Positions 17,906 through 31,081 of a stretch of 37,151 nucleotides of DNA are shown here, piece by piece. Source of the DNA: Methanomassiliicoccales archaeon PtaU1.Bin124 (lineage in GTDB: Archaea > Thermoplasmatota > Thermoplasmata > Methanomassiliicoccales > UBA472); the NCBI GenBank assembly GCA_002067865.1, contig MVRC01000008.1, positions 1-37,151 of the forward strand. Reading direction: 5' to 3'. Within the stretch, counting starts at the first letter, position 1, and every line of letters starts with the position of its first letter. The notes beneath the pieces are model-generated. The model worked only from the letters and a program-made list of their open reading frames with translations, ran no database searches and was not told the DNA's origin. The translations under genes were made by a program, and so were the position numbers.

Positions 17906-18358
17906 TTACTTCATCAGCTTCTTCCTATAGACGATCAGGGCGGCTCCGAAGAGGATCAGTACTATGCCCATCACCCATAGGAATGGCGCCGTCAAAGTAT
18001 TGCATGTATGTGATGACAATGCGCAGGTCTTCGTCAGCGCCGCAGGAAGTGCGATGGTCGCCCCGCCCATCATCGCACCCACCGCCGCCAGCGATATTAT
18101 CGAACCGATCGCCGTCGCGAAAAGCATCATGCCGCCTACGATGACCGTCGCCGCACCGATGCCTATCTCCGCCCTTGCAGTGTATCCGCAGGGCATGGGC
18201 AGCGTTTTGTTCGCCGCGGTGATGACCCACAGCCCGTTCGGATTTTCCGCGGTATGGACCTCGCACACGGGCGCAAACGTCCATGGACCGACAGCCACCA
18301 AAACCCCCAGCAACATAAGAACGATAGCTGGTATCACCATCTTCTTAGAGAATTCCAT
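17906..18358 (-). CDS. DUF4418 family membrane protein
   Basis: A 150-residue integral membrane protein with four hydrophobic segments: residues 8-27, 66-85, 86-107 and 124-143. Between the first two is an extracellular loop with two Cys and the family-like MPCGYTARAEIG. This fits DUF4418, small four-helix proteins that I recall being found near FtsX-type ABC genes; their function is unknown. Here it follows the FtsX/ATPase/FtsX genes on the same strand, 62 nt after the last one. It has its own strong TATA element, so it may be transcribed separately. Confidence 0.75.
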   Translation of the reverse strand: MEFSKKMVIPAIVLMLLGVLVAVGPWTFAPVCEVHTAENPNGLWVITAANKTLPMPCGYTARAEIGIGAATVIVGGMMLFATAIGSIISLAAVGAMMGGATIALPAALTKTCALSSHTCNTLTAPFLWVMGIVLILFGAALIVYRKKLMK

Positions 18359-18420: not shown

Positions 18421-19626
18421 TCACTTCTGCCCCGCCCTTATCGATTCGTACGGATCGCTTCTGGCCGCCATCATTGCCGGATACAGCGCCGACAACGCCC
18501 CCAGCAAGACCGTCAGCAACATCACCCACCAGGTCTGCAGCAGCACCGCGTCCAAGCCTGGCCACAGGAACGGTATCCCAAGGCTAACAGTGATCGTGTT
18601 GTTGAAAATTATGACGATCGCTGCGGCCGACACCAACCCGATGAGCGCCCCGACCATCGCCAGTATCAGCGCCTCTGCCAATAATGCGTTGAACACAAAG
18701 CCCTTCTTCGCCCCCATCATGCGGTACAGCCCTATCTCCCTCCTCCGTTCGTTCACGACCAGCGTCGACACGGTGGCTATGAGCGGAAGTGAGATGAGCG
18801 TCACTGCGCCTGCAGTGAGATACAGCGCACCGACGGTTGATGCCAGTTGAGCGTCGATCTTTCGTGCCAGGTGGTTCGACGTTATGACCGACACCTCCGG
18901 CGCCGCAGCAGCTATGTCCGCGGACACCTGTTGCACGTCAGCTCCAGGCTCCAGCTGCACCAATATCGCAGATATCTGTCCCGGGTTCATCTCGATGGGC
19001 TGCCATGCCACCTTCACCGATTCCCTGGCCATCACTATGGCGTCGGAATCGCGCACGAACACCGACTGGTCCACACCGGTCCCGGTCGGCTGCAATATGC
19101 CAGCCACCTTGAACTGATGCCCGTAGAATATGATCGGCTGCCCAACGTCCGTCCCTTTGATCTGGTAGCCCAAAATGACCTCGTCCTTCTCCAACGGCCG
19201 CCCCAGCTCCTGGTCCAGCCACGGGGTCACGGTGAAGTCCATGGTCGAGTTGAATGCGATCAGCTGTGTTGGCAGAGCGCAACAGCTGGCGCTCAACGTC
19301 GCTATGAACGTCTGCGGGGCCACGCGCTGCACACCTGGCACAGCCTGCAGCTTGGTCATCTCCGTGGTGTTCATGAAGAATGTCGACGGCTTCCCGGTGA
19401 TTATGATCGCATCGGCGTTCGACGCATACTCCTGAGGGACGACCAACAGATCGGCACCCAGGCGCGTCATGCCCGCCCTGGTGGAATTGCTCGTCCCCTC
19501 AGTGAGGAACGAAGCTATGAGCACGGAGCACACCACCACGGCGAACGTCAGCACCGTCGCGACGTTGCGGAACGACCTCCTCTTCAGGTTCCTCCACAAG
19601 AACTGTCCATAGCTCAGCTTCGCCAT
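18421..19626 (-). CDS. FtsX/MacB-type ABC transporter permease (distal)
   Basis: A 401-residue permease with the FtsX plan: one N-terminal transmembrane helix (residues 20-42), a long extracytoplasmic MacB-PCD-like domain, then three C-terminal helices. The coupling segment NERRREIGLYRMMGA between the second and third parts is typical. Such permeases work as mechanotransmission or export units rather than channels. The ATG at 19626 is preferred over a TTG four codons earlier. It lies 42 nt after the ATPase gene and belongs to the same operon. Confidence 0.88.
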   Translation of the reverse strand: MAKLSYGQFLWRNLKRRSFRNVATVLTFAVVVCSVLIASFLTEGTSNSTRAGMTRLGADLLVVPQEYASNADAIIITGKPSTFFMNTTEMTKLQAVPGVQRVAPQTFIATLSASCCALPTQLIAFNSTMDFTVTPWLDQELGRPLEKDEVILGYQIKGTDVGQPIIFYGHQFKVAGILQPTGTGVDQSVFVRDSDAIVMARESVKVAWQPIEMNPGQISAILVQLEPGADVQQVSADIAAAAPEVSVITSNHLARKIDAQLASTVGALYLTAGAVTLISLPLIATVSTLVVNERRREIGLYRMMGAKKGFVFNALLAEALILAMVGALIGLVSAAAIVIIFNNTITVSLGIPFLWPGLDAVLLQTWWVMLLTVLLGALSALYPAMMAARSDPYESIRAGQK

Positions 19627-19668
19627 CTTATGCACCAACGACCTCTAATATCGATGCCAAGCGCTCGG

Positions 19669-20358
19669 TCATATCCTTTCGCATTTTTGCCCCTCCTCCT
19701 CGCTGACGATGCCCCTTTCCATGCTGAGCACTCGGGACGCAAAGCAGGCCAGGTCTTGGTTATGCGTCACCATTACGACCGTCTTTCCGAGCTTGTTGAT
19801 GCGGCAGAACATGTCCATTATCTCTTTCTCGGTGTTTACGTCCAGGTCACCGGTCGGTTCATCCGCCAAGATTATCGAGGGATTGTTCATGAGGGAACGT
19901 GCGATGGCGGCCCGCTTCAGCTCTCCACCGGACAATTGGTTCGGGAACGAGTCCAGCTTGTCCCCCAGCCCTACCGTCTGCAGTAGGATGGTGGCCCGCT
20001 CAGAAGGGTCTTCCTCCACCTTCGAGCAGAACATGGTCGGCAGCATGACGTTCTCCAGCGTGTTCAGCGTCGGCAACAGCCCAGGGAACTGGAAAACGAA
20101 GCCCAGCTCGCTGCCGCGCACCTCCGACAGATCTTCGTCGTTCATCGCCCACAGGTCCTTGCCGTTCAGCATGACCTTGCCGCTGGACGGACGCGTCAGG
20201 CCACCCAATATGCTGAGCAGCGTCGACTTGCCGGAACCTGAGCGGCCCACGATGAGAACGAACTCACCGTCCTTGATGGAGATGTTCGCCTGGTCCAGGG
20301 CGGTTATGCGGCCGGAGAGGGTCTCGTAGGTCTTCATCACTTCGTTGGTCTCGATCAA
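19669..20358 (-). CDS. ABC transporter ATPase (LolD/MacB type)
   Basis: A 229-residue ATPase of the LolD/MacB/FtsE class. It has Walker A GRSGSGKST near residues 37-45, the signature LSGGELKRAAIARSL, Walker B IILADEPTGDLD and the H-loop VTHN. The start is taken as TTG at 20358, which overlaps the upstream permease stop as TTGA and yields the usual IETNEVMKTY N-terminus. An ATG seven codons later is possible but would cut the first strand. It should energise the two flanking FtsX permeases. Confidence 0.9.
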   Translation of the reverse strand: MIETNEVMKTYETLSGRITALDQANISIKDGEFVLIVGRSGSGKSTLLSILGGLTRPSSGKVMLNGKDLWAMNDEDLSEVRGSELGFVFQFPGLLPTLNTLENVMLPTMFCSKVEEDPSERATILLQTVGLGDKLDSFPNQLSGGELKRAAIARSLMNNPSIILADEPTGDLDVNTEKEIMDMFCRINKLGKTVVMVTHNQDLACFASRVLSMERGIVSEEEGQKCERI

Positions 20359-21539
20359 TTCTGTCCGCTCCTTATCGCGTCGTATGGGTCCATCCTGCTG
20401 GCCTTCAATGCAGGCCACAGTGCCGCCGTCCCGGCCAACAACATCGCCACTAGCACGGCGAATAAAAACTGCATTGTCATGTCCAGCATTGAGGGGCTAA
20501 CCAGCTCGGTCTGCAACAACCTCGAGAATGTTCCCTGGAACAGGAACAGTGATATCGTCGCTGCCGCCGCCCCGGCGAGCGCCCCGGCGGCCGCCAGATA
20601 TATGCCTTCCGCGAAGAACATCTTGAACATGTCCTTCTGCGAGGCGCCCATGGACCTCATCAGCCCTATCTCCCGCCTGCGCTCGTTCACGCTCATCGCG
20701 GAGATGAGGAGTATCAGCGGCAGCGAGACCAGGATCACCACGGTCACGGTCAGGTATAATCCCTGCGAAGCGAGGCTCAGCTGGTCCGATATGCCTTGCC
20801 CTTGGTTGTTCAGCGGGAACACCAGAACGTTCGGGTTCTGCGCCGACACGTAATGGAGCACGGTATCGGTCCCGACCGAACGGTCCGCCTTGATGAGCAC
20901 CGCGGATATCTGTCCTGGCTGCATCGAAAGGCCGGCCACGCCATCATTGACCAATCGCTCGGCCGCGTCCATCGTTATGAACGCGCTGCCGTCCGCCGAG
21001 GCGGACGTAGGGTCCAATCTGCCAGCGACCGTGAAGGCCTGTCCGAATATGCTCACGGTGTCACCGATGCTTCCATACACTGAATCGCCCAACAGCACCT
21101 CGTTGTCCAAAAGCGACCTTCCAAGGTAGCTGGCAAGCAGCGATCTTATGGTGAAGTCCTGCGATGGTTCATAAGCTATGACGATCAGCGGCCTCGGCCA
21201 GGCCTGGTCCGTTCCAACATACGCCTGCATCGCCGCCTGCGTCACTCCCGGGGTGCCGAGCACCTCGTCATACGTGGAGGAAGGCAGGTACAGGTCCGAC
21301 GGCTGGCAGATGAGGAAGACGCCATTGCTCGTGGCGGTGGGGTCCATCGGCACGGCGATCATATCGGGGCCAAGCCTCTCTGAGCCGGTGCGGACGGCCG
21401 ATTGAGCGCCGGCCATCAGCATACCGGTCACGAGCAGCGAACCGGCGATGAAAGCGAAGCACAGCATGACCGCCAGGTTGCGGAACCTGCGCCGTTTGGC
21501 GCCGCGAAGTATGACGGTGTTGGCTTTCATCCTTCCCAT
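20355..21539 (-). CDS. FtsX/MacB-type ABC transporter permease (proximal)
   Basis: A 394-residue FtsX-type permease. It has an N-terminal helix (residues 17-40), a large extracytoplasmic domain rich in beta strands, three C-terminal helices, and the NERRREIGLMRSMGA coupling motif. It resembles the second permease of the operon, so the complex is probably heterodimeric. The ATG follows 1 nt after the stop of the degenerate oxidase gene, so the oxidase-like protein and the transporter are translated from one message. It has Met codons at residues 1 and 4 and either may be the start. Confidence 0.88.
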   Translation of the reverse strand: MGRMKANTVILRGAKRRRFRNLAVMLCFAFIAGSLLVTGMLMAGAQSAVRTGSERLGPDMIAVPMDPTATSNGVFLICQPSDLYLPSSTYDEVLGTPGVTQAAMQAYVGTDQAWPRPLIVIAYEPSQDFTIRSLLASYLGRSLLDNEVLLGDSVYGSIGDTVSIFGQAFTVAGRLDPTSASADGSAFITMDAAERLVNDGVAGLSMQPGQISAVLIKADRSVGTDTVLHYVSAQNPNVLVFPLNNQGQGISDQLSLASQGLYLTVTVVILVSLPLILLISAMSVNERRREIGLMRSMGASQKDMFKMFFAEGIYLAAAGALAGAAAATISLFLFQGTFSRLLQTELVSPSMLDMTMQFLFAVLVAMLLAGTAALWPALKASRMDPYDAIRSGQN

Positions 21540-21540
21540 C

Positions 21541-23448
21541 TTACCACCCCGGCTCGATCTGCCGCATCATCTCGTTCTCCTCATGGTCCAGGATGTGGCT
21601 GTACCAGATGTAGGTCGGTCCTATGGTAGGATCGAATGCAAAGGCCGTCCGCCCGTCCACCGGCGCGAAGCGCACCAGCACAGTGACGACCTCGCCGGGG
21701 TTGACCACCACGCAGTCCCGCCAGCCGGTGTCGATGGCCGACGGAGCATAAGCTGTGCCTAGCAGGTAGCCCGTCATGTCGATGTTGACCGTCGGGTTCT
21801 TGAAAGGCAGCTTGCCCCCGTTCGCCGCCAGCCAGGCATAGTCGTATCGGTCGGAGAAGCCCTGCCTGCTCACGACCTTTAGGTGGGCCAGGCCGACCTC
21901 GATAAGATGACTGGAACGCGTAGAGTCTACGATATGCCACAGCTCCGTAGTTCCGACCTTCGGCAGCTCGCTGATGCCGGAACGGAACAGCTGTCCGTCC
22001 AGCGTCGCCATGGAATCCCCCGCCTCGCCGATGAAGTCCAATAGGGTGAAGTAACGCTCCGCCACGGGCTCATCCGAGGCGACATAGTCGGCCATCGAAT
22101 CAACCCCTGACGGCAGTGAGATGGCCTGGTATCCAGACTCAGGACCGACCGTGAATTGCATGACGACGCCGGTGTTTGCGTCCGCTCCCTTTCCGAACGG
22201 GTACGGTGCGGAAGCTGAGTTCCTCAGGGCGATCTTGGTGCCGGAATCAAAGGAGGAGAAGTCGACCAATATGTCCGCGCGCTCTCCCGGGGCCAGGATG
22301 ATGCGGTTCGTCCTGAGCGGCGCATCGAGATAGTAGCCATCCTTCGCCAGAACCGTGAACGCCATGCCGTTCGAGAGGGCCAGGTCATACCAGCGCGCGC
22401 CCGATCCATCAAGGAGGCGCAGCAGGTATATGCCCCGGTCCACGTCCATGTTCGGCCATGCCAGGCCATTGACCGTTATGACGTTCCCCATGAACTCCCG
22501 CACCCAGGCGGCGGTATCGTTCGGCCCTGGCAGGTTCTGCGTGGGCAGCTTCAGCGTGCCATCAGCATAGAAGTTGCGGTCCTGGATGGACAGCGGCACA
22601 TCGTACTTGCCAGAAGGCAGCAGCAGCGAGGTGGCATTGTCCATATCGCGCAGGATGTAGAATCCTGAGAGCCCGGAATAGCAGTTCGATCTGGTGAGGC
22701 CGATGGCCCGGTCATGGAAGTACAGCGTGGCGGGCGACTGGACATTATCGTAGTGATATACGGCGGCGTTCGGCATGGTGCGCTTATAGGTATAGTACTC
22801 CGGGCCGTGCAGCCCGTTCCAGGTGACCCAGGAATAGGGATGGCCGTCATACATCGATGAGCTCTCCATCCCCATGACATGCACGGTCGTCGTCACTGGG
22901 TAGATGGCAGTGCCGGTATTGTTCTGGTTGTTGATGTCGATGCTCGAGTCGGCCGCGTACAGGTACGGCGTGTAAATGGAGTTGATCCAGGCCACGTTGG
23001 CAGGGCGTCCTTGCACCGCCTCGATGGTCGGCGATGGCGAGGAGCGGACGAATCCCAGTTGCTTGCCTGTCACCGCATCATGCGCCAATCCGCCGTACCC
23101 CCAGACCTTCGTGGCAGGTAGGCCGGTGGGTCGACCCTGCTGATCCACCGTGGGCAATATCTGCTGGTAGAACTCCGATGCGATGATGGAATAGTGATCG
23201 GTCATCAGTCCGTTGGTCGGGTCCAGCATGGTCGTAGGCGTGAAGACGGCCGGCGGGCCATCCAGCTGGTTGGTGAACTTGGGGATCGACGACGGGTCCA
23301 GGTCCTTGAGGCCAGGCGGTGCTGCCAATGCTGGAGGGATGAGGCCCGTTGCCAACATGAGAAATGCAAGTGCCAGAGCTGGAAGCGCTGATGACCTCGC
23401 TACTCTGCCCCCGGGCGGGGTCTGGGCACCATGCATTCTAGATCGCAT
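21541..23448 (-). CDS. Multicopper oxidase-fold protein with degraded copper sites
   Basis: A 635-residue secreted protein with a signal peptide (hydrophobic residues about 20-42) and a three-cupredoxin multicopper oxidase fold of the bilirubin oxidase/CotA type. Ligand motifs are aligned but broken: HVMG (H189, M191 in place of His), HDR (R247), HLIEVG (H514, E517, G519), and YSHILDH (Y616, S617 in place of the type 1 Cys, with H618 and H622 kept). Five of ten His ligands and the type 1 Cys are gone, so classical oxidase activity is unlikely. The frame is intact and long, arguing for a retained non-catalytic role. It is directly followed by the FtsX/ATPase genes. An alternative start is the ATG at 23436. 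Confidence 0.82.
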   Translation of the reverse strand: MRSRMHGAQTPPGGRVARSSALPALALAFLMLATGLIPPALAAPPGLKDLDPSSIPKFTNQLDGPPAVFTPTTMLDPTNGLMTDHYSIIASEFYQQILPTVDQQGRPTGLPATKVWGYGGLAHDAVTGKQLGFVRSSPSPTIEAVQGRPANVAWINSIYTPYLYAADSSIDINNQNNTGTAIYPVTTTVHVMGMESSSMYDGHPYSWVTWNGLHGPEYYTYKRTMPNAAVYHYDNVQSPATLYFHDRAIGLTRSNCYSGLSGFYILRDMDNATSLLLPSGKYDVPLSIQDRNFYADGTLKLPTQNLPGPNDTAAWVREFMGNVITVNGLAWPNMDVDRGIYLLRLLDGSGARWYDLALSNGMAFTVLAKDGYYLDAPLRTNRIILAPGERADILVDFSSFDSGTKIALRNSASAPYPFGKGADANTGVVMQFTVGPESGYQAISLPSGVDSMADYVASDEPVAERYFTLLDFIGEAGDSMATLDGQLFRSGISELPKVGTTELWHIVDSTRSSHLIEVGLAHLKVVSRQGFSDRYDYAWLAANGGKLPFKNPTVNIDMTGYLLGTAYAPSAIDTGWRDCVVVNPGEVVTVLVRFAPVDGRTAFAFDPTIGPTYIWYSHILDHEENEMMRQIEPGW

Positions 23449-23534: not shown

Positions 23535-24044
23535 TCAATTCGCCTCGCCGACGATATATGCAAAACTGATGCGGCAGGCCAGGCCATCGCTGTTGTAGTC
23601 GGTCGCATCGTATGCCCAGGACCCCGTTCCGCCGATGACATTGTCACCGTTCAAGGTCGGGATGGTCCCGTCGGCAGTGTAGCGCATCGTCCGCGCAGCC
23701 TCGTCGATGATCTCCACAGCAGTGACCCGGAAATAGAACTTCTGCTGCTCCTGAGATATGATGGCACCTAGGTGGAACGGCGCGATCTCTCCGATGGTGC
23801 CGTTCATTCGGCCGCTCTCCCGAACAACATCGAAGGCCATGTCCCCGTCGGTATCGATGGATATGATGAACTTGACATCGATGCCGTTGCTGACGTCTGT
23901 GGTGTTCAGGTCCCAGCTGAGGATATAGACGTCGACCAGGGTGCTCCTCCTCTCTGGTTCTTTCGTCAGATATGGGTACACGAACGCGGCGATCGCGATG
24001 CACAGCACCAGCGCAACGACTGCCACCACGATCTTCCTATCCAT
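23535..24044 (-). CDS. Membrane-anchored extracytoplasmic protein, unknown
   Basis: A 169-residue protein with an N-terminal signal-anchor helix (residues 5-24) and a beta-rich extracytoplasmic domain with acidic repeats of D/N and G (DTDGDM, NSDGLAC), possibly binding calcium or another metal. I do not recognise a family. A good Shine-Dalgarno AGGTGA lies about 3 nt before the ATG, and a TATA-like GCTATATC about 40 nt upstream. It lies between the intact giant oxidase and the degenerate one, on the same strand, and is therefore likely part of the same envelope locus. Confidence 0.7.
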   Translation of the reverse strand: MDRKIVVAVVALVLCIAIAAFVYPYLTKEPERRSTLVDVYILSWDLNTTDVSNGIDVKFIISIDTDGDMAFDVVRESGRMNGTIGEIAPFHLGAIISQEQQKFYFRVTAVEIIDEAARTMRYTADGTIPTLNGDNVIGGTGSWAYDATDYNSDGLACRISFAYIVGEAN

Positions 24045-24160: not shown

Positions 24161-27100
24161 TTAGGGTCTGCGGTACCACAGGACGCCTACCACCGCCACT
24201 GCGGCGATGATCGCAGATCCGATGATCCAGGGCGTCCAATCGAACGGCTTCACTACAGAGATGGACGCATAGCCGACCACCGCCCCGATCGACGCCGACA
24301 CAGTGCCTTTGCCAGTTTCGTTCTGCGCGGTGTAGGTGGCACCGTTCATGTAACCGCAGTCGGTCTTCCAGGTGAACACCAGGTTCGGGATCACGTTGTC
24401 ATACTGGTCCAGACCGGTGGCGACGAACTCCACCACCTGCTTAGTGCTCACGTTTACCGTGCCCGGCGTCAGGACGATGTGCGTCAGCTGGTCAGGCACG
24501 ATCACGACGTCAGCGAGACCGATGGTGCTGCCTACGATGGCGCGCACCTGCCCGGTCACTCCGGCGGTTGTCTGGGCAACGAAGGCGCCGTTGGTCACGG
24601 TACCGACGTTGCTGGTCCACGTCACGCTGAGCCCGGAAATGGTGTTGTTCCACTGGTCGTAGCAGACCGCATCGAACTGGACGGACTTGCCCGCGACCAT
24701 GGCGTTCACGCTGCCAGGTGTCACAACGATGTGGTCCAGCACATCCGGCACGATGTTCACCGATACCGATGCCTGCACCACTCCGTAAGTGGCCCTCACA
24801 TAGCCTATGCCGGTCGAGGTCTGAGCGGTCAGCAAGCTGTCGTTCATCGTACCCACGTTAGTGGACCAGGTGAAGTTCAGCCCTGTCACCTCATTGTTGT
24901 ACTGGTCGTACCCTACGGCGGTGAAGTTCAGCGTGTGGTCCGCCACGAGGTCGGTGGTTCCGGGGGTGATGATGATGTACGTCAGCTGGTTATTGCCGAC
25001 GCTAACCGTCGCCGTTCCGGTCTTGCCGAGCACCGATGCGTTCACATATCCGGTGATGCCCGCCGTGTTCTGTGCGGTGAACAATCCGTTGCCGTCGATC
25101 GTACCTATATCGGTGGTCCAGGTGAACACCAGTCCTGGGATGCTGTTGTTATACTGGTCGTAGCCCACGGCACTGAACTGCTTCTGTGCACTGGCGGCCA
25201 GATTGGTCACGGCCGCAGGGGTGACATTGATGTGGTCCAGCGCATCAGGCACGATCTTGATCGCGCTTGTTCCGTTCACCACGCCCGACGTGGCCTTCGC
25301 CCAACCGGTGACACCAGCCATTTTCTGGGCCGTCAGCACGCTTCCGTTCATCGTTCCCACGTTGGTGGTCCAGGTGAACATGAGGCCATCGACCACGTTG
25401 TTGAACTTGTCATAGCCCACGGCGGTCAGGTTCAGCACCATGCCGGCCGCGACATCGGTGGACGAGGGCGTCACCAGGATGTAGGACAGCTGCGCGAAGC
25501 CAACATAGACCCTCGCGCTGCCAGTTATGCTGCCGACGGTGGCGTTGACATAGCCGGACGCTCCCGACTGGTCCTGTGCGGTGAACATGCCGTTGCTGTC
25601 GACCGTTCCCACATCAGTGGTCCAGGTGAACACCAGTCCAGAGATGCTGTTGTTGAACTGGTCATATCCGACCGCGCTGAACTGGGTCGTCGTCCCGGCC
25701 AGTGCATTCGGCACCGTCGTCGGTGTGACGATGATATGGTCCAGCGCATCCGGTACGATGTTGACGACCGCAGTCGCGTTCACCACACCGTTCGTCGCCA
25801 TCACGTAGCCAGTAGCAGTGTTCTTTTGTCCGTTCAGCGTCGTGCCGCTCATCGTTCCTACGTTGGTCGTCCAGTCGAACGTCATCCCAATGATCGGATT
25901 GTTGGCGTTGTCATAACCGACCGCCAAGAACTCATGGCTGGTGTTCGCCACCACATTGATGGTGTTCGGGGTGATGGTTATGTACGCCAGCGGTCCGAAA
26001 ATCACGGTGACGTCCGCTGTGCCGTTCATGAACCCAGATGGCGTGACGGTCGTGCCAGTCACTGCACGTACATACCCGATCGCCGGGGTCTGCTGCGCTG
26101 CAAATAGTCCGGTCTGCGTTATCGTTCCGACATTGGTCTCCCAGAACCAGGTCAGACCAGGGATGGAGTTGTTGTATGCATCCTGTCCATCGGCGGTGAA
26201 CTGTTGCGCCCCGCCCTTCACCACGAACGTCATCGCCGGGGTGACATTGACATGGTCAAGCGGGCCCGGCACTATGGTCACGGTGGCCTCGCCGGTCATG
26301 ACGCCGTTCTTGGCCCTGACATAACCAGTGACACCGGCGGTCTTGTTCGCCGTGAGCGTGGTACCGCTCATGGTGCCGACGTTGGTCTCCCAAGCGAAGG
26401 TGACCCCCGACATGATGTTACCATACTGGTTGATCGCATCGGCAATGAAGTTCTGGGTATGCCCCGCCATCACATCCTTAACTGTGGGTGAAACACGGAT
26501 CGACGTCAGGACGCTCTTGATCACCTGCGAGGTGAGCGGGTAACGGTCCGTGGCCACTCCACCGTCTATCGCGTATGGTGTGTCGACGATGCCGAACGGG
26601 GCATTGACATCGGGGGTGGTCCAGTCCTTCCAGTAATTGCCGCCCGTGCCGTTGTCCCAGGCATTGCCGGTATCATCGTACGCCTGCACGTTCGCCGCGC
26701 TGTAGGTGGCGGTCGAGCCATGGTTGTCGATGAAATCGTTCTGGTACACGATGTTGTTGCCGCCAGAATGTATCCACACACCATATGCCAGGTTTGCGAA
26801 GAAGGTGCTGTCGTAGAACGTGTTGTACGTGGACAGCATCAGCTGCGCCCCTGGATAGTTACGCACGATGGTGTTGTTGGCGAAGGTGTTCGAATGCGAG
26901 TCGTACAGCCAAAGTCCGCTGTATCCATCTCTGATCTCATTGAACGACACGATGCTATCGTTCGTATGGCTCAGGTAGATGCCGATGTAGTTCAGCGATG
27001 CGGACTGGTTGAACACCAGCACGTTGGTGCACTGGTTCAGGTAGACACCCGCCCAGTTGTTGTTCGTGACCACATCGTTCGCCAATATTCCATTCACCAC

Positions 27101-30100
27101 ATTGTTCAGCGCGATTCCGGAGTCCGGAGCATACGGCCACGAGGATACGCCACCATTGGCGTTCGACACCGTGCAGTCGCGCACGATGAAGTAGGCGGTG
27201 GTGTTGCCGATGTATATTCCGTAACCGAGGCCCGTGGCATCGATGGAATATCCTTCGATGACATACGGGGACACTAGCGTTCCAGCACCGGACGTCACGC
27301 CGTTAGCCAGCGTGAAGTCGGCATCGCTGTCGATGCGTATCGGCGCATGTGTAACATACGTCGGTGCCTGCGCCCGCGGGCTGTTGATCATCTGGTCCCG
27401 CAGCGATATGAATGCGGTCGTGTAGGCGGTGGCGGTCGGTACGTACGGCGGGGTCACGGTCGGACCCGGCGGAGCGGGCGGCTGAGCCCCAACTATCACG
27501 TTACCTCCGGCCGTGTCGATCCTCAGCAGGTTCGATGAGGTGGAGTTTAGCTGCTTGGTCGGGAAACCGATGCCAACTGGGTACACCACCGGGTCCCCGA
27601 TTATCTCGGTGCCGAGGATGCGGAAGTAGTACTGGGTCGAGCCGTCATTGACGATCGTGGCGTTATAGTAGAAGGTATTGCCCTTCGTGTGTCCCGTCGT
27701 CGTGAACGGCGAATCCACGGTCGCCAGCGTGGTCCACGGTCCGGTGGACGAGTTAATGGATAGCTGCACGATGTAGCCGGACTCGGCGATCGAATTGTCC
27801 GTCCAGGTCATGTTTATCCAGTTGTTGTTGGACAGATTGATCACACCGTTAAGATTGCTGGCCGGCACAGGCGCCACCGCAAACCCTACGGCATGCATCA
27901 TATCCATCTCCTCATGCTCCAGGAGGTGGCAGTGCCAGACGTATTCCCAACCATAGTTGATGTAATGGTTGGTGACGATCTGACTTACGGCCGATGGGTC
28001 GAAGAACCCTCCTGGCGGGGCCAGCAGCAGCTCTCCCTCCGGCTTCGTCGGGTCGATCAGACGGACGGCGTTCGGCACCTCCCATGGTAATGATGGTGAA
28101 TACGGCCGCATCGCCACTATCGTCACCGACAGCGGATCGACTCGCACCGTCTCCTTCCATCCTATCTCGTTCAGGTCAGGGGCGTAAATGGCCCCGTCCC
28201 AGCCTACCCTATTGATCAGCTGCACGTTCATCAGGTGCCAGTGCATCGCGTGCGTGTCGACGCCGTTATGCGTGATGGCCCAGATCTGCGTGCCATCACC
28301 CTGCACAGGCGTCAGCGGATACATGTTGTCCGTGAGCAGGTCCACCGGCGGGCTGGCATAGCCTAGCGGAATGAACATCTGCGTCACGGCGGTGCCCATG
28401 TTCACCTCCAGGCCCAACGTTCCGCTCATTCTTCCATACTCCACATCGTAGGAGCCGCCCATCTCATCATGGATTGCTTTCGGTTCCAACGGGATGGTGA
28501 CGGAGTTACCGGCCAGGGTGGTGAAGGTCATGCTGCCGTCGCCTATCCTGACGTAGTTGTTGTTGGAGAAGCTGCCCCCATATGCCGCGTTGTAGAAGTT
28601 CTGTGGCACCAGGACTGGGTCCTGGGACAGCTGGAACACGCTCTTGTGCGCCGAGGTGTTGGAGAACGCATCGAACAGCGCACTGAAGTCATATGCAGGC
28701 GCAGAGGTCTTATTGGCCACATGGATCTGCATGATGGTGCGGGTGTTCGGCCCGTAGCCCGGCAGGGTGTTGGCGGCTCCGCCGGAGGCGGTCTGGTCGC
28801 CGTCGCCGGTGAAGTAATCGTTGCGCGGGTCCTTGGCCGGGAATCCCCCCGGCGCATCGTTGTACAGGATGAGCGTCTTGCCGGCATAGGCCGAAAAGTC
28901 GACGATCACATCGGCCCTCTCCGCGCTGCCCAGCAGCAGCGAGTGGTCCTGCACGTTACCATACGTGAAGGTCTTGGCGTTGAAGTTGTAGGTGACCGGC
29001 TGCTGCGGTATCACGACCGGTGAAGGCAGGAAGCCGCCCTCTGTACCTATCTGTATCCAGTTCGGTCCGGATGTCGCCGGGTCCGGCACTCCTCCGAAGC
29101 GGCCGTCGGTGGGCCACAGCGCCGGGTATCCTGGCGTCGGGACTGCCGGCACCATCTTGACCTCGGTGTTGGTCCGCCCGTCCCAGGTCGTAACCGATGG
29201 ATCGGCCACGTACATCTGCAGGTTGTAGAATCTGTCGTTGGCCGCGTTCAAGATCCTGAAACGCACAGCGGTCGGATCGACCGTCAGCACTGGATAGGCC
29301 TGTCCGTTGACAACCGAAGTGTCCATGAACGCCTCCATCGTGGAGGATACATTGGGCACGCCAGGGATCATCGGCGGCTCAACGGAGTTCGGGTCCGAGG
29401 GATTGTAGTACGGGTTCGGGACCGGTCCGTACGTAATACTGGTCGGCGGGAAGAACCATGGTCCGTAGTCCCAACGGCCCAGATCATTGGCGCCTGTCGG
29501 CGAGTACGGGTTCTGGTTCGGCATGTAGACGTGCGGGAACCACAGGTCGCCGGTGGTGGGCGTGATACCGTTCGAGCCCCATGCCCATGTCGGGTCCTGG
29601 TAGGCTATGGTCGTGCTGTCCACGAACGTCTTGTCCTGGATGATCAACGGAATGCCGTATAGGTTAGCGCCGGTCCCCGATGGCAGTATGCCAGCGTTGA
29701 TCAGTTGGTTCTCTATGGAATCTGTAAGCAGATATCCTGCCGCCTCACCGGCGTACACGTTCAGCCTGGTGATCCCATAGGAGTGGTCATGGTAGAACAT
29801 CAACCTGGCGCTCTGCTGGTTCGTATAATAGAACGTCATGGCTCCGGGGCCGGGGTCGTTGGACGCCCCGGGGGCCGGGGCACTGGTGACCCCTACAGTG
29901 TCCGGAACGACCTGGCCGTTCACGAACCACATGTCCGGAACGTACTCTACGCTGACGCCCTTTGGATACTGGGTGGTCTCACCGGCGGGGGTGATCCACT
30001 GATGTGGCGTACCATCGGAGATCCAAGGTGTCGCTCCGCCATGCAGGTGCAGGGTAGCGCGGTTCTGAGTATAGTTCTCGAACATCATGGGGTTCATGAG

Positions 30101-31036
30101 CGACGCGTTCGGACCCATGCCCGCACCCATGGTGGTGGTATCGACCGGGATGAACAGATTTCCGTTTATTCCGATCGGGAGCAGGTTATAGAAAGTCACC
30201 CTCGTCGGAATATCTCGACTGGCGACCAGAACAGGACCGAGGTAGCTCGGTTGGTCCATCCCATATGCCTGAGATCCATCTGGCATTAGGATGGCAGATC
30301 CGTCTGGGTTGGTAAGCGCAACGTGGTTGCTATACCCGGCGATCGCCGGGGTCTCCAGCTGCACATAACCGACGAGGAGGGTCGAGGGCAGGTCAGAGGA
30401 GAACTTATGCATGTACCTCACGACCGCGATCTCATAGTAGTCACAACCAGGATAGGTCGTAAGGTCCGGAACACCGATCCCAATGTAGTTGCCTAGATTG
30501 TTGGCGTTAGACGCGCCCAGCCCGGGCAGGGTATCGATGAACTTTCTGATGCCTCCGGTCAATGCCCCATCCATGTTGCAGGTCAGCGCAGCACCTGAGC
30601 CGGTCGGGTCAGCGATCTTTGCTATGGGGGCGCTGTATCCCGACCCTCCAAACACCACATTGATGGAATAGATCGAACCCGAGATGACCACTGCGGTCGC
30701 TATGGCCCCGCTTCCAGTGCCCCATGCGTCCTCTATTGTTACTACGGGGTTGGAATACCTGGTACCAGAATTGTCAACGGTGATGCTGGTGATGGACCCT
30801 GTGGGAACGGGGCTGTTCGCATAATTAGCATATGGCCCGAAGTAATGCGGAACCCCCCCGGGGTCCATTTGCCCCAAAGCCAGATTGGCAGAGGTATTCT
30901 TCACGTTGCCCTGGAACGCCATGCTCTGGGTTGACAGGACATAGCCCATTCCCGCGGTCAACAAGAAGGAAACCACCAAAAGCACAGAAATGATTTTTGT
31001 TACGCTGATGCCACCAATTTTGCTATCCCGTTTCAT
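24161..31036 (-). CDS. Giant surface multicopper oxidase with NosD-like helix, Ig stalk and membrane anchor
   Basis: A 2,291-residue modular surface protein. An N-terminal signal/anchor helix (about 10-32) is followed by two short repeats of the form YSxPxVxI…GSGA (about 45-115) and a complete multicopper oxidase: HLHG (H330, H332), HDH (H416, H418), HAMHWH (H929, H932, H934) and HCHLLEHEEMDMM (H1035, C1036, H1037, H1041, M1046), all ten His plus Cys and Met present. Then come an FnIII-like domain (about 1057-1160), a NosD-like right-handed beta-helix with N-rich parallel coils (about 1226-1502), nine Ig-like repeats (about 1512-2262) and a C-terminal helix ending YRRP (2268-2288). The oxidase domain is unusually long because of insertions between motifs two and three. 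The ATG at 31036 is preferred because GGGAG lies 8 nt upstream. It probably oxidises metal ions or phenolics at the cell surface; the substrate is unknown. Confidence 0.85.
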   Translation of the reverse strand: MKRDSKIGGISVTKIISVLLVVSFLLTAGMGYVLSTQSMAFQGNVKNTSANLALGQMDPGGVPHYFGPYANYANSPVPTGSITSITVDNSGTRYSNPVVTIEDAWGTGSGAIATAVVISGSIYSINVVFGGSGYSAPIAKIADPTGSGAALTCNMDGALTGGIRKFIDTLPGLGASNANNLGNYIGIGVPDLTTYPGCDYYEIAVVRYMHKFSSDLPSTLLVGYVQLETPAIAGYSNHVALTNPDGSAILMPDGSQAYGMDQPSYLGPVLVASRDIPTRVTFYNLLPIGINGNLFIPVDTTTMGAGMGPNASLMNPMMFENYTQNRATLHLHGGATPWISDGTPHQWITPAGETTQYPKGVSVEYVPDMWFVNGQVVPDTVGVTSAPAPGASNDPGPGAMTFYYTNQQSARLMFYHDHSYGITRLNVYAGEAAGYLLTDSIENQLINAGILPSGTGANLYGIPLIIQDKTFVDSTTIAYQDPTWAWGSNGITPTTGDLWFPHVYMPNQNPYSPTGANDLGRWDYGPWFFPPTSITYGPVPNPYYNPSDPNSVEPPMIPGVPNVSSTMEAFMDTSVVNGQAYPVLTVDPTAVRFRILNAANDRFYNLQMYVADPSVTTWDGRTNTEVKMVPAVPTPGYPALWPTDGRFGGVPDPATSGPNWIQIGTEGGFLPSPVVIPQQPVTYNFNAKTFTYGNVQDHSLLLGSAERADVIVDFSAYAGKTLILYNDAPGGFPAKDPRNDYFTGDGDQTASGGAANTLPGYGPNTRTIMQIHVANKTSAPAYDFSALFDAFSNTSAHKSVFQLSQDPVLVPQNFYNAAYGGSFSNNNYVRIGDGSMTFTTLAGNSVTIPLEPKAIHDEMGGSYDVEYGRMSGTLGLEVNMGTAVTQMFIPLGYASPPVDLLTDNMYPLTPVQGDGTQIWAITHNGVDTHAMHWHLMNVQLINRVGWDGAIYAPDLNEIGWKETVRVDPLSVTIVAMRPYSPSLPWEVPNAVRLIDPTKPEGELLLAPPGGFFDPSAVSQIVTNHYINYGWEYVWHCHLLEHEEMDMMHAVGFAVAPVPASNLNGVINLSNNNWINMTWTDNSIAESGYIVQLSINSSTGPWTTLATVDSPFTTTGHTKGNTFYYNATIVNDGSTQYYFRILGTEIIGDPVVYPVGIGFPTKQLNSTSSNLLRIDTAGGNVIVGAQPPAPPGPTVTPPYVPTATAYTTAFISLRDQMINSPRAQAPTYVTHAPIRIDSDADFTLANGVTSGAGTLVSPYVIEGYSIDATGLGYGIYIGNTTAYFIVRDCTVSNANGGVSSWPYAPDSGIALNNVVNGILANDVVTNNNWAGVYLNQCTNVLVFNQSASLNYIGIYLSHTNDSIVSFNEIRDGYSGLWLYDSHSNTFANNTIVRNYPGAQLMLSTYNTFYDSTFFANLAYGVWIHSGGNNIVYQNDFIDNHGSTATYSAANVQAYDDTGNAWDNGTGGNYWKDWTTPDVNAPFGIVDTPYAIDGGVATDRYPLTSQVIKSVLTSIRVSPTVKDVMAGHTQNFIADAINQYGNIMSGVTFAWETNVGTMSGTTLTANKTAGVTGYVRAKNGVMTGEATVTIVPGPLDHVNVTPAMTFVVKGGAQQFTADGQDAYNNSIPGLTWFWETNVGTITQTGLFAAQQTPAIGYVRAVTGTTVTPSGFMNGTADVTVIFGPLAYITITPNTINVVANTSHEFLAVGYDNANNPIIGMTFDWTTNVGTMSGTTLNGQKNTATGYVMATNGVVNATAVVNIVPDALDHIIVTPTTVPNALAGTTTQFSAVGYDQFNNSISGLVFTWTTDVGTVDSNGMFTAQDQSGASGYVNATVGSITGSARVYVGFAQLSYILVTPSSTDVAAGMVLNLTAVGYDKFNNVVDGLMFTWTTNVGTMNGSVLTAQKMAGVTGWAKATSGVVNGTSAIKIVPDALDHINVTPAAVTNLAASAQKQFSAVGYDQYNNSIPGLVFTWTTDIGTIDGNGLFTAQNTAGITGYVNASVLGKTGTATVSVGNNQLTYIIITPGTTDLVADHTLNFTAVGYDQYNNEVTGLNFTWSTNVGTMNDSLLTAQTSTGIGYVRATYGVVQASVSVNIVPDVLDHIVVTPGSVNAMVAGKSVQFDAVCYDQWNNTISGLSVTWTSNVGTVTNGAFVAQTTAGVTGQVRAIVGSTIGLADVVIVPDQLTHIVLTPGTVNVSTKQVVEFVATGLDQYDNVIPNLVFTWKTDCGYMNGATYTAQNETGKGTVSASIGAVVGYASISVVKPFDWTPWIIGSAIIAAVAVVGVLWYRRP
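24250..26505 (-). repeat. Nine tandem Ig-like repeat units inside the giant gene
   Basis: Nine units of about 83 residues (250 nt) follow each other without linkers. Each has the pattern (I/V)xVTPxx…F.AVGYDQ.NN.I.GL.FTWTTNVGTM…G.V.A..G.V.G.A.V.IVP. Units alternate between two subtypes: odd ones read VGTM(S/N)G and end in LDH, while even ones read (V/I)GT(I/V)…G(L/M)FTAQ and mostly end in L(A/S/T)Y. The series is therefore ABABABABA, consistent with duplication of a two-unit block. The fold resembles bacterial Big/invasin-type stalk domains. Confidence 0.8.
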
Positions 31037-31081
31037 TGGAACTGCTCCCATTCGATGTGGCACCTCTTTTTTGAGCTGTTA

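Follow-up and report, generated by a model that had tools for sequence, protein, structure and literature searches.

A multicopper oxidase homologue lacking half of its copper ligands beside an FtsX-type ABC transporter in a methanogen

What becomes of an oxidase that has lost half of its copper ligands, and whose gene lies against that of a transporter permease? The question is raised by a degenerate CotA-type multicopper oxidase (MCO) of 635 aa, encoded at 21541..23448 on the minus strand and bearing a hydrophobic, signal-like N-terminus. The window analysed here, a stretch of 37,151 nucleotides that makes up the whole of contig C8, belongs to a 2.2-Mb, 99.8% complete methanogen genome in which MCR alpha is present; the haem-copper oxidase COX1 was not found in this genome. 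The contig is unlikely to be a contaminant: its NFACT gene is single-copy and 66% identical to that of a genus mate. The tetranucleotide usage of the contig fits the genome (0.96). The contig end (31500-37151) has a GC content of 0.46 versus 0.57 overall; the ORFs tested there gave no significant Pfam or PHROG match, and the region is possibly a mobile or foreign segment.

Copper ligands of the degenerate protein

The reading frame begins with ATG and, as the initial annotation had described, is intact over its 635 codons, with no internal stop. In a phmmer search against PDB sequences the product matched CotA best (1gsk, E=1e-62, residues 115-631), and it shows full-length three-domain homology to the MCO superfamily with 49-52% identity to archaeal MCOs. 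Pfam detected no Cu-oxidase domain in it at E≤0.001, whereas the intact homologues show all three. Even so, there is no doubt about its MCO homology.

A catalytic MCO of the CotA type carries 12 ligands in the motifs HxHG, HxH, HxxHxH and HCHxxxHxxxxM, of which the degenerate protein keeps six. The ligand columns were read off the CotA alignment, from which the CotA numbering was also verified, and the motif positions, all on the minus strand, were computed from the ORF. In motif 1 (residues 190-205, 22833..22881), H190 is kept as the T2 ligand (CotA H105), and M192 stands in place of T3 ligand H107; M194, M199 and H203 are gained nearby. Motif 2 (F244-H245-D-R247, 22702..22719) retains H245 (T3, H153) and has R247 for the T3 ligand H155. 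Motif 3 (S513-H514 to L520, 21889..21912) retains H514 (T1, H419), with E517 replacing the T2 ligand H422 and G519 replacing the T3 ligand H424. In motif 4 (W615 to R629, 21562..21606), Y616 and S617 occupy the positions of the T3 ligand H491 and the T1 Cys (C492), and H618 (T3, H493), H622 (T1, H497) and the axial M627 (T1, M502) are kept. The protein has lost five His in addition to the T1 Cys. The replacements by Met, Arg, Glu, Gly, Tyr and Ser and the retained His listed in the initial annotation are real, but its H189 and M191 should read H190 and M192, and the axial Met is absent from its list.

Chance or misreading of the ligand losses is ruled out, as the motifs of CotA and of four archaeal homologues line up with those of the protein gap-free; with motifs gap-free against CotA, a shift of the alignment recovers no ligand. 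Compared with the other columns that are unchanged across seven intact homologues (hereafter invariant columns), the ligand columns were lost in modest excess (6/12 versus 39/173, one-sided Fisher p=0.043). With the T1 Cys gone, together with one T2 and four T3 His, oxidase catalysis is judged very unlikely and the loss of oxidase function near certain from the alignment. The designation of the protein as non-catalytic is therefore well supported. AF2 predictions reached a mean pLDDT of 36.5 and 36.7 with alignments of 5 and 6 rows, respectively; viral contigs yielded only Bacillus CotA-like genes, which served as alignment rows.

The genome carries three MCOs: the degenerate protein, an intact copy on contig C16 and an intact surface MCO of 2300 aa. 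The C16 copy keeps all ligands, is 52-53% identical to the degenerate protein and lies in a sister operon, which justifies calling the latter a paralogue. The 2300-aa protein (24161..31063, minus strand) adjoins the degenerate operon upstream. It contains all ligand motifs in its N-terminal MCO part (HLHG, YHDH, HAMHWH and HCHLLEHEEMDM), followed by a NosD-type β-helix, about ten Ig-like repeats and a C-terminal membrane segment, and is possibly a working oxidase. Shorter relatives of this protein in three other genomes (G001, L050; G016, L051; G008, L052) keep the ligands. The oxidase step would presumably be covered by either the 2300-aa MCO or the C16 copy.

None of the seven full-length archaeal homologues compared shows a change in a ligand column. 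A simple pattern search recovered all four motifs in the G001, G016 and G008 relatives and in two further homologues, and three of the four in homologue L048. A complete search of the order (147 genomes) and sampling of its class and phylum found no second degenerate MCO, and a scan of GTDB contigs by exact peptide patterns returned only distant bacterial MCOs and no second degenerate copy. The degenerate copy is a singleton among the 147 genomes, a point that counts against the functional reading given below.

An operon with an FtsX-type ABC transporter

The degenerate gene is the second of six on the minus strand, the order being a 169-aa anchored protein, the MCO, permease FtsXa, an ATPase, permease FtsXb and a DUF4418 protein. 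The first (23535..24044) is a small membrane-anchored extracytoplasmic protein that precedes the MCO in each of the four operons; it shows 33-39% identity across them, contains acidic DxDGD-like stretches and matches no Pfam family. FtsXa (20355..21539) is an FtsX/MacB-type permease (Pfam FtsX 6.5e-19, MacB_PCD 7e-8). It is followed by an ABC ATPase of the LolD/MacB class (19669..20418), whose true start is probably internal, near 20355. FtsXb (18421..19638), also of the FtsX/MacB type, is nearest to DUF4418-linked bacterial permeases, and the DUF4418 membrane protein itself (Pfam 2.2e-19) is encoded at 17906..18358. The order from the small protein to FtsXb is common to the C16 operon and to that of genome G005, and the G011 operon agrees with it up to the contig end. 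The C16 operon (L009:5239-13065) is adjoined by a DUF4418 gene and a double FtrD-like (DUF2318) protein. Within the genome, DUF4418 occurs only at these two operons and FtrD (PF10080) only at C16.

The spacing between MCO and permease sets the degenerate operon apart. FtsXa starts at 21539, 1 nt past the MCO stop, as had been noted initially; with the annotated FtsXa starts as reference, 144 nt separate the two genes at C16, 151 nt in G005 and 349 nt in G011, and at C16 an alternative upstream start could bring this down, though not below 45 nt. Shortly past the MCO stop, all three intact operons have a T-rich stretch that by eye resembles an archaeal terminator. Because the gaps differ and the T-rich stretch follows the intact MCOs, the arrangement suggests that an intact MCO is a separate unit and that the degenerate MCO may be made together with the permease. 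Since none of the intact copies shares the close packing, the proposed link to the transporter is strengthened.

Both permeases are FtsX/MacB-like, and their resemblance to MacB and LolE led us to reject a link with the cell-division FtsX. Their best bacterial matches are DUF4418-linked, in Treponema (DUF4418-FtsX-ATPase) and in Fusobacterium (L065:339-7850; FtrD-FtsX-FtsX-ATPase-FMN_bind-DUF4418-FtsX-ATPase). They score 187 bits against a DUF4418-linked permease versus 36 bits or less against FetB/FetC-like ones. The operon, with DUF4418 beside FtsX and ATPase genes and permeases nearest to that subfamily, belongs with the DUF4418-linked FtsX ABC systems. Through the Fusobacterium cluster, DUF4418, an uncharacterised family, is connected with gene clusters of the Fet/Fls type. 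In Pelobacter, genes for a heavy-metal P-type ATPase and an HMA protein are followed by DUF2318-FtsX-ATPase. The locus shares with Fls loci the two FtsX-type permeases and the ATPase, but not FTR1 (FetM) or an in-cluster FtrD. FTR1 (PF03239) has no match in the host genome, and no P19 (FetP) was recognised among the proteins of the operon. Whole Fet/Fls membership was rejected, FTR1 being absent from the genome and FtrD confined to the C16 locus.

Taken with the ligand losses, a constrained open frame (see below), the unique 1-nt packing and the ABC family context lead us to favour, tentatively and at somewhat less than an even chance, a non-catalytic, extracytoplasmic and probably metal-binding accessory subunit that was derived from an oxidase and serves the FtsX-type ABC system encoded next to it. 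The MCO fold would have been stripped of oxidase activity and kept as an accessory subunit to the two permeases, the ATPase and the DUF4418 protein. Most likely one or both of its reduced sites would hold copper or iron, and the protein may present the metal, or dock, to the ectodomains of the permeases. We infer its secretion, metal binding, contact with FtsX and co-transcription, as well as a direction of transport. What is observed is the gene coupling; the copper chaperone or substrate-binding partner of the transporter suggested in the initial annotation is a putative role.

Residual sites and constraint on the degenerate gene

Assuming that the usual assignment of His to copper applies, H514, H622 and M627 remain at the T1 site, and one T3 copper presumably keeps H245 and H618, with M192 replacing the third His. 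Either remnant set could plausibly serve as a 2His+1Met metal site. Of the eight gained Met, three (M192, M194 and M199) fall within 8 residues (permutation p=0.023, test picked post hoc), and the gained Met, His and Cys sit near ligand columns (p=0.043, likewise picked post hoc). This clustering is suggestive only, a weak and after-the-fact signal, and total Met and His (19 and 13) are not raised. The T3 losses take in all three ligands of one copper. No weight was placed on the emptied site, as random loss of 5/8 His empties one T3 site in 36% of cases by hand count.

The protein contains exactly two Cys, C256 and C579, which align to CotA positions 164 and 466; each is a gain at a column where all seven intact homologues share another residue. 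Speculatively, a disulphide between the two might link domain 1 to domain 3. A dedicated metal-binding ABC subunit built on the MCO scaffold, its cluster perhaps replaced by the new disulphide, is conceivable but rather unlikely. About equally unlikely is a pure protein scaffold that, like FtsP (SufI), is metal-free and offers a binding surface to the permease or to the giant MCO. SufI, with 2/12 ligands and no metal, is thought to be a scaffold and provides the precedent (PMC2661564). A disulphide replacing the inter-domain copper cluster, itself speculative, would also suit such a protein. The six ligands that remain, as against two in SufI, include the His-His-Met set at T1 and argue against a metal-free protein, as does, weakly, the Met cluster gained at motif 1.

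Is the gene simply decaying? Compared with the C16 MCO, differences at codon positions 1, 2 and 3 are 0.39, 0.28 and 0.585, the third positions being saturated; this pattern points to purifying selection on the degenerate MCO. In 500 simulations of neutral drift, carried on until positions 1 and 2 had diverged by 17%, the mean number of stops was 9.1, and no run had fewer than two. The protein keeps 140 of the 185 invariant columns (76%), whereas intact homologues keep 89-96% in leave-one-out comparisons. Its branch is the longest of the family, at 0.85-0.87 substitutions per site versus 0.15-0.30 in the sister operons; the corresponding values are 0.89 versus 0.20-0.45 for FtsXa, 0.51 versus 0.25-0.32 for FtsXb and 0.39 versus 0.22-0.45 for the ATPase. 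The MCO and the neighbouring permease FtsXa have therefore changed most in the operon. The operon as a whole has diverged further than the sister operons, and age may therefore explain some of the MCO rate. The degenerate MCO appears to be under weaker or different constraint, not none.

GC3 bears on the history of the two copies. In the degenerate operon it is 0.71-0.80, close to the host level, and three genes of the C16 operon have 0.65-0.67 versus 0.80-0.82 in their neighbours. Judged from composition, the C16 copy may have come in later, with the degenerate copy long resident, and long residence fits the basal place of the latter in the tree. One could thus imagine an oxidase made redundant by the arrival of the C16 operon, or by the giant MCO, and now drifting with its frame still open. 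The long branch, the reduced share of invariant columns, the singleton status of the gene and the composition of the C16 operon, as if acquired later, would all fit such a course. Against it stand the zero stops where drift yields about nine, the strong third-position excess of differences, the tight link to permease and ATPase genes that are themselves intact and conserved, and the signal-like N-terminus that has been kept. With the frame open, the codon positions bearing the mark of purifying selection and three quarters of the invariant columns retained, simple decay is disfavoured, and we consider decay in progress improbable.

The residual His/Met sets, together with the heavy-metal setting of related FtsX-ABC genes in Pelobacter, would also suit an independent secreted metal chaperone or sequestration protein with no physical tie to the transporter. 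That the permease gene follows after only 1 nt argues instead for linked function, and Met and His are no more numerous overall, which makes an independent protein a decidedly doubtful choice. Least probable is a new catalysis, in which the remodelled cluster (H190, H245, H618 and E517) forms a mononuclear metal site of different activity: three His and a Glu do remain there, a set that occurs in other mononuclear metalloproteins, but R247, G519 and Y616 suggest a disrupted cavity and the operon offers no clue to a substrate or pathway.

Comparison with known systems

In a 2008 survey, all 21 anaerobic archaea examined were copper non-users (PMC2147054). The degenerate protein adds to the oddity of finding copper oxidases in a methanogen. 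It is homologous to CotA over residues 115-631 and shares with it two T1 His and the axial Met. Unlike CotA, it is without half of the 12 ligands, the T1 Cys among them, and its gene is packed against an FtsX-type ABC transporter.

Among the Fet/Fls systems, the iron-uptake cluster FetMP-FetABCDEF (Fls) of C. jejuni likewise combines two FtsX-type permeases with one ATPase, and FtrD occurs at the sister locus on C16. The methanogen differs in having no FTR1 in its genome and no FtrD at the degenerate locus, with an MCO in the extracytoplasmic position. In C. jejuni, growth under iron limitation depends on fetA-D, and the authors describe what FetBCD does and transports as unclear (PMC10783030). 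The class of FtsX-type ABC transporter found here is poorly understood.

E. coli FtsP (SufI) resembles the degenerate protein: it, too, has the MCO fold but no working copper centre (PMC2661564). The protein scored 89.7 bits against the FtsP model, a curated equivalog with a cut-off of 581, and thus falls outside that family. It also differs from FtsP in the number of ligands kept and in having no clear twin-arginine signal, and the FtsX of its operon is MacB/LolE-like, not the cell-division FtsX. Plant SKU5/SKS proteins have the MCO fold without copper ligands; they are eukaryotic and GPI-anchored and have no ABC transporter. Pseudo-MCOs are already known, from E. coli FtsP to the plant SKU5 type. 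The present locus joins an MCO pseudoenzyme to an FtsX-type ABC system and, with the intact operon in the same genome, provides a matched pair in which to study what the MCO contributes.
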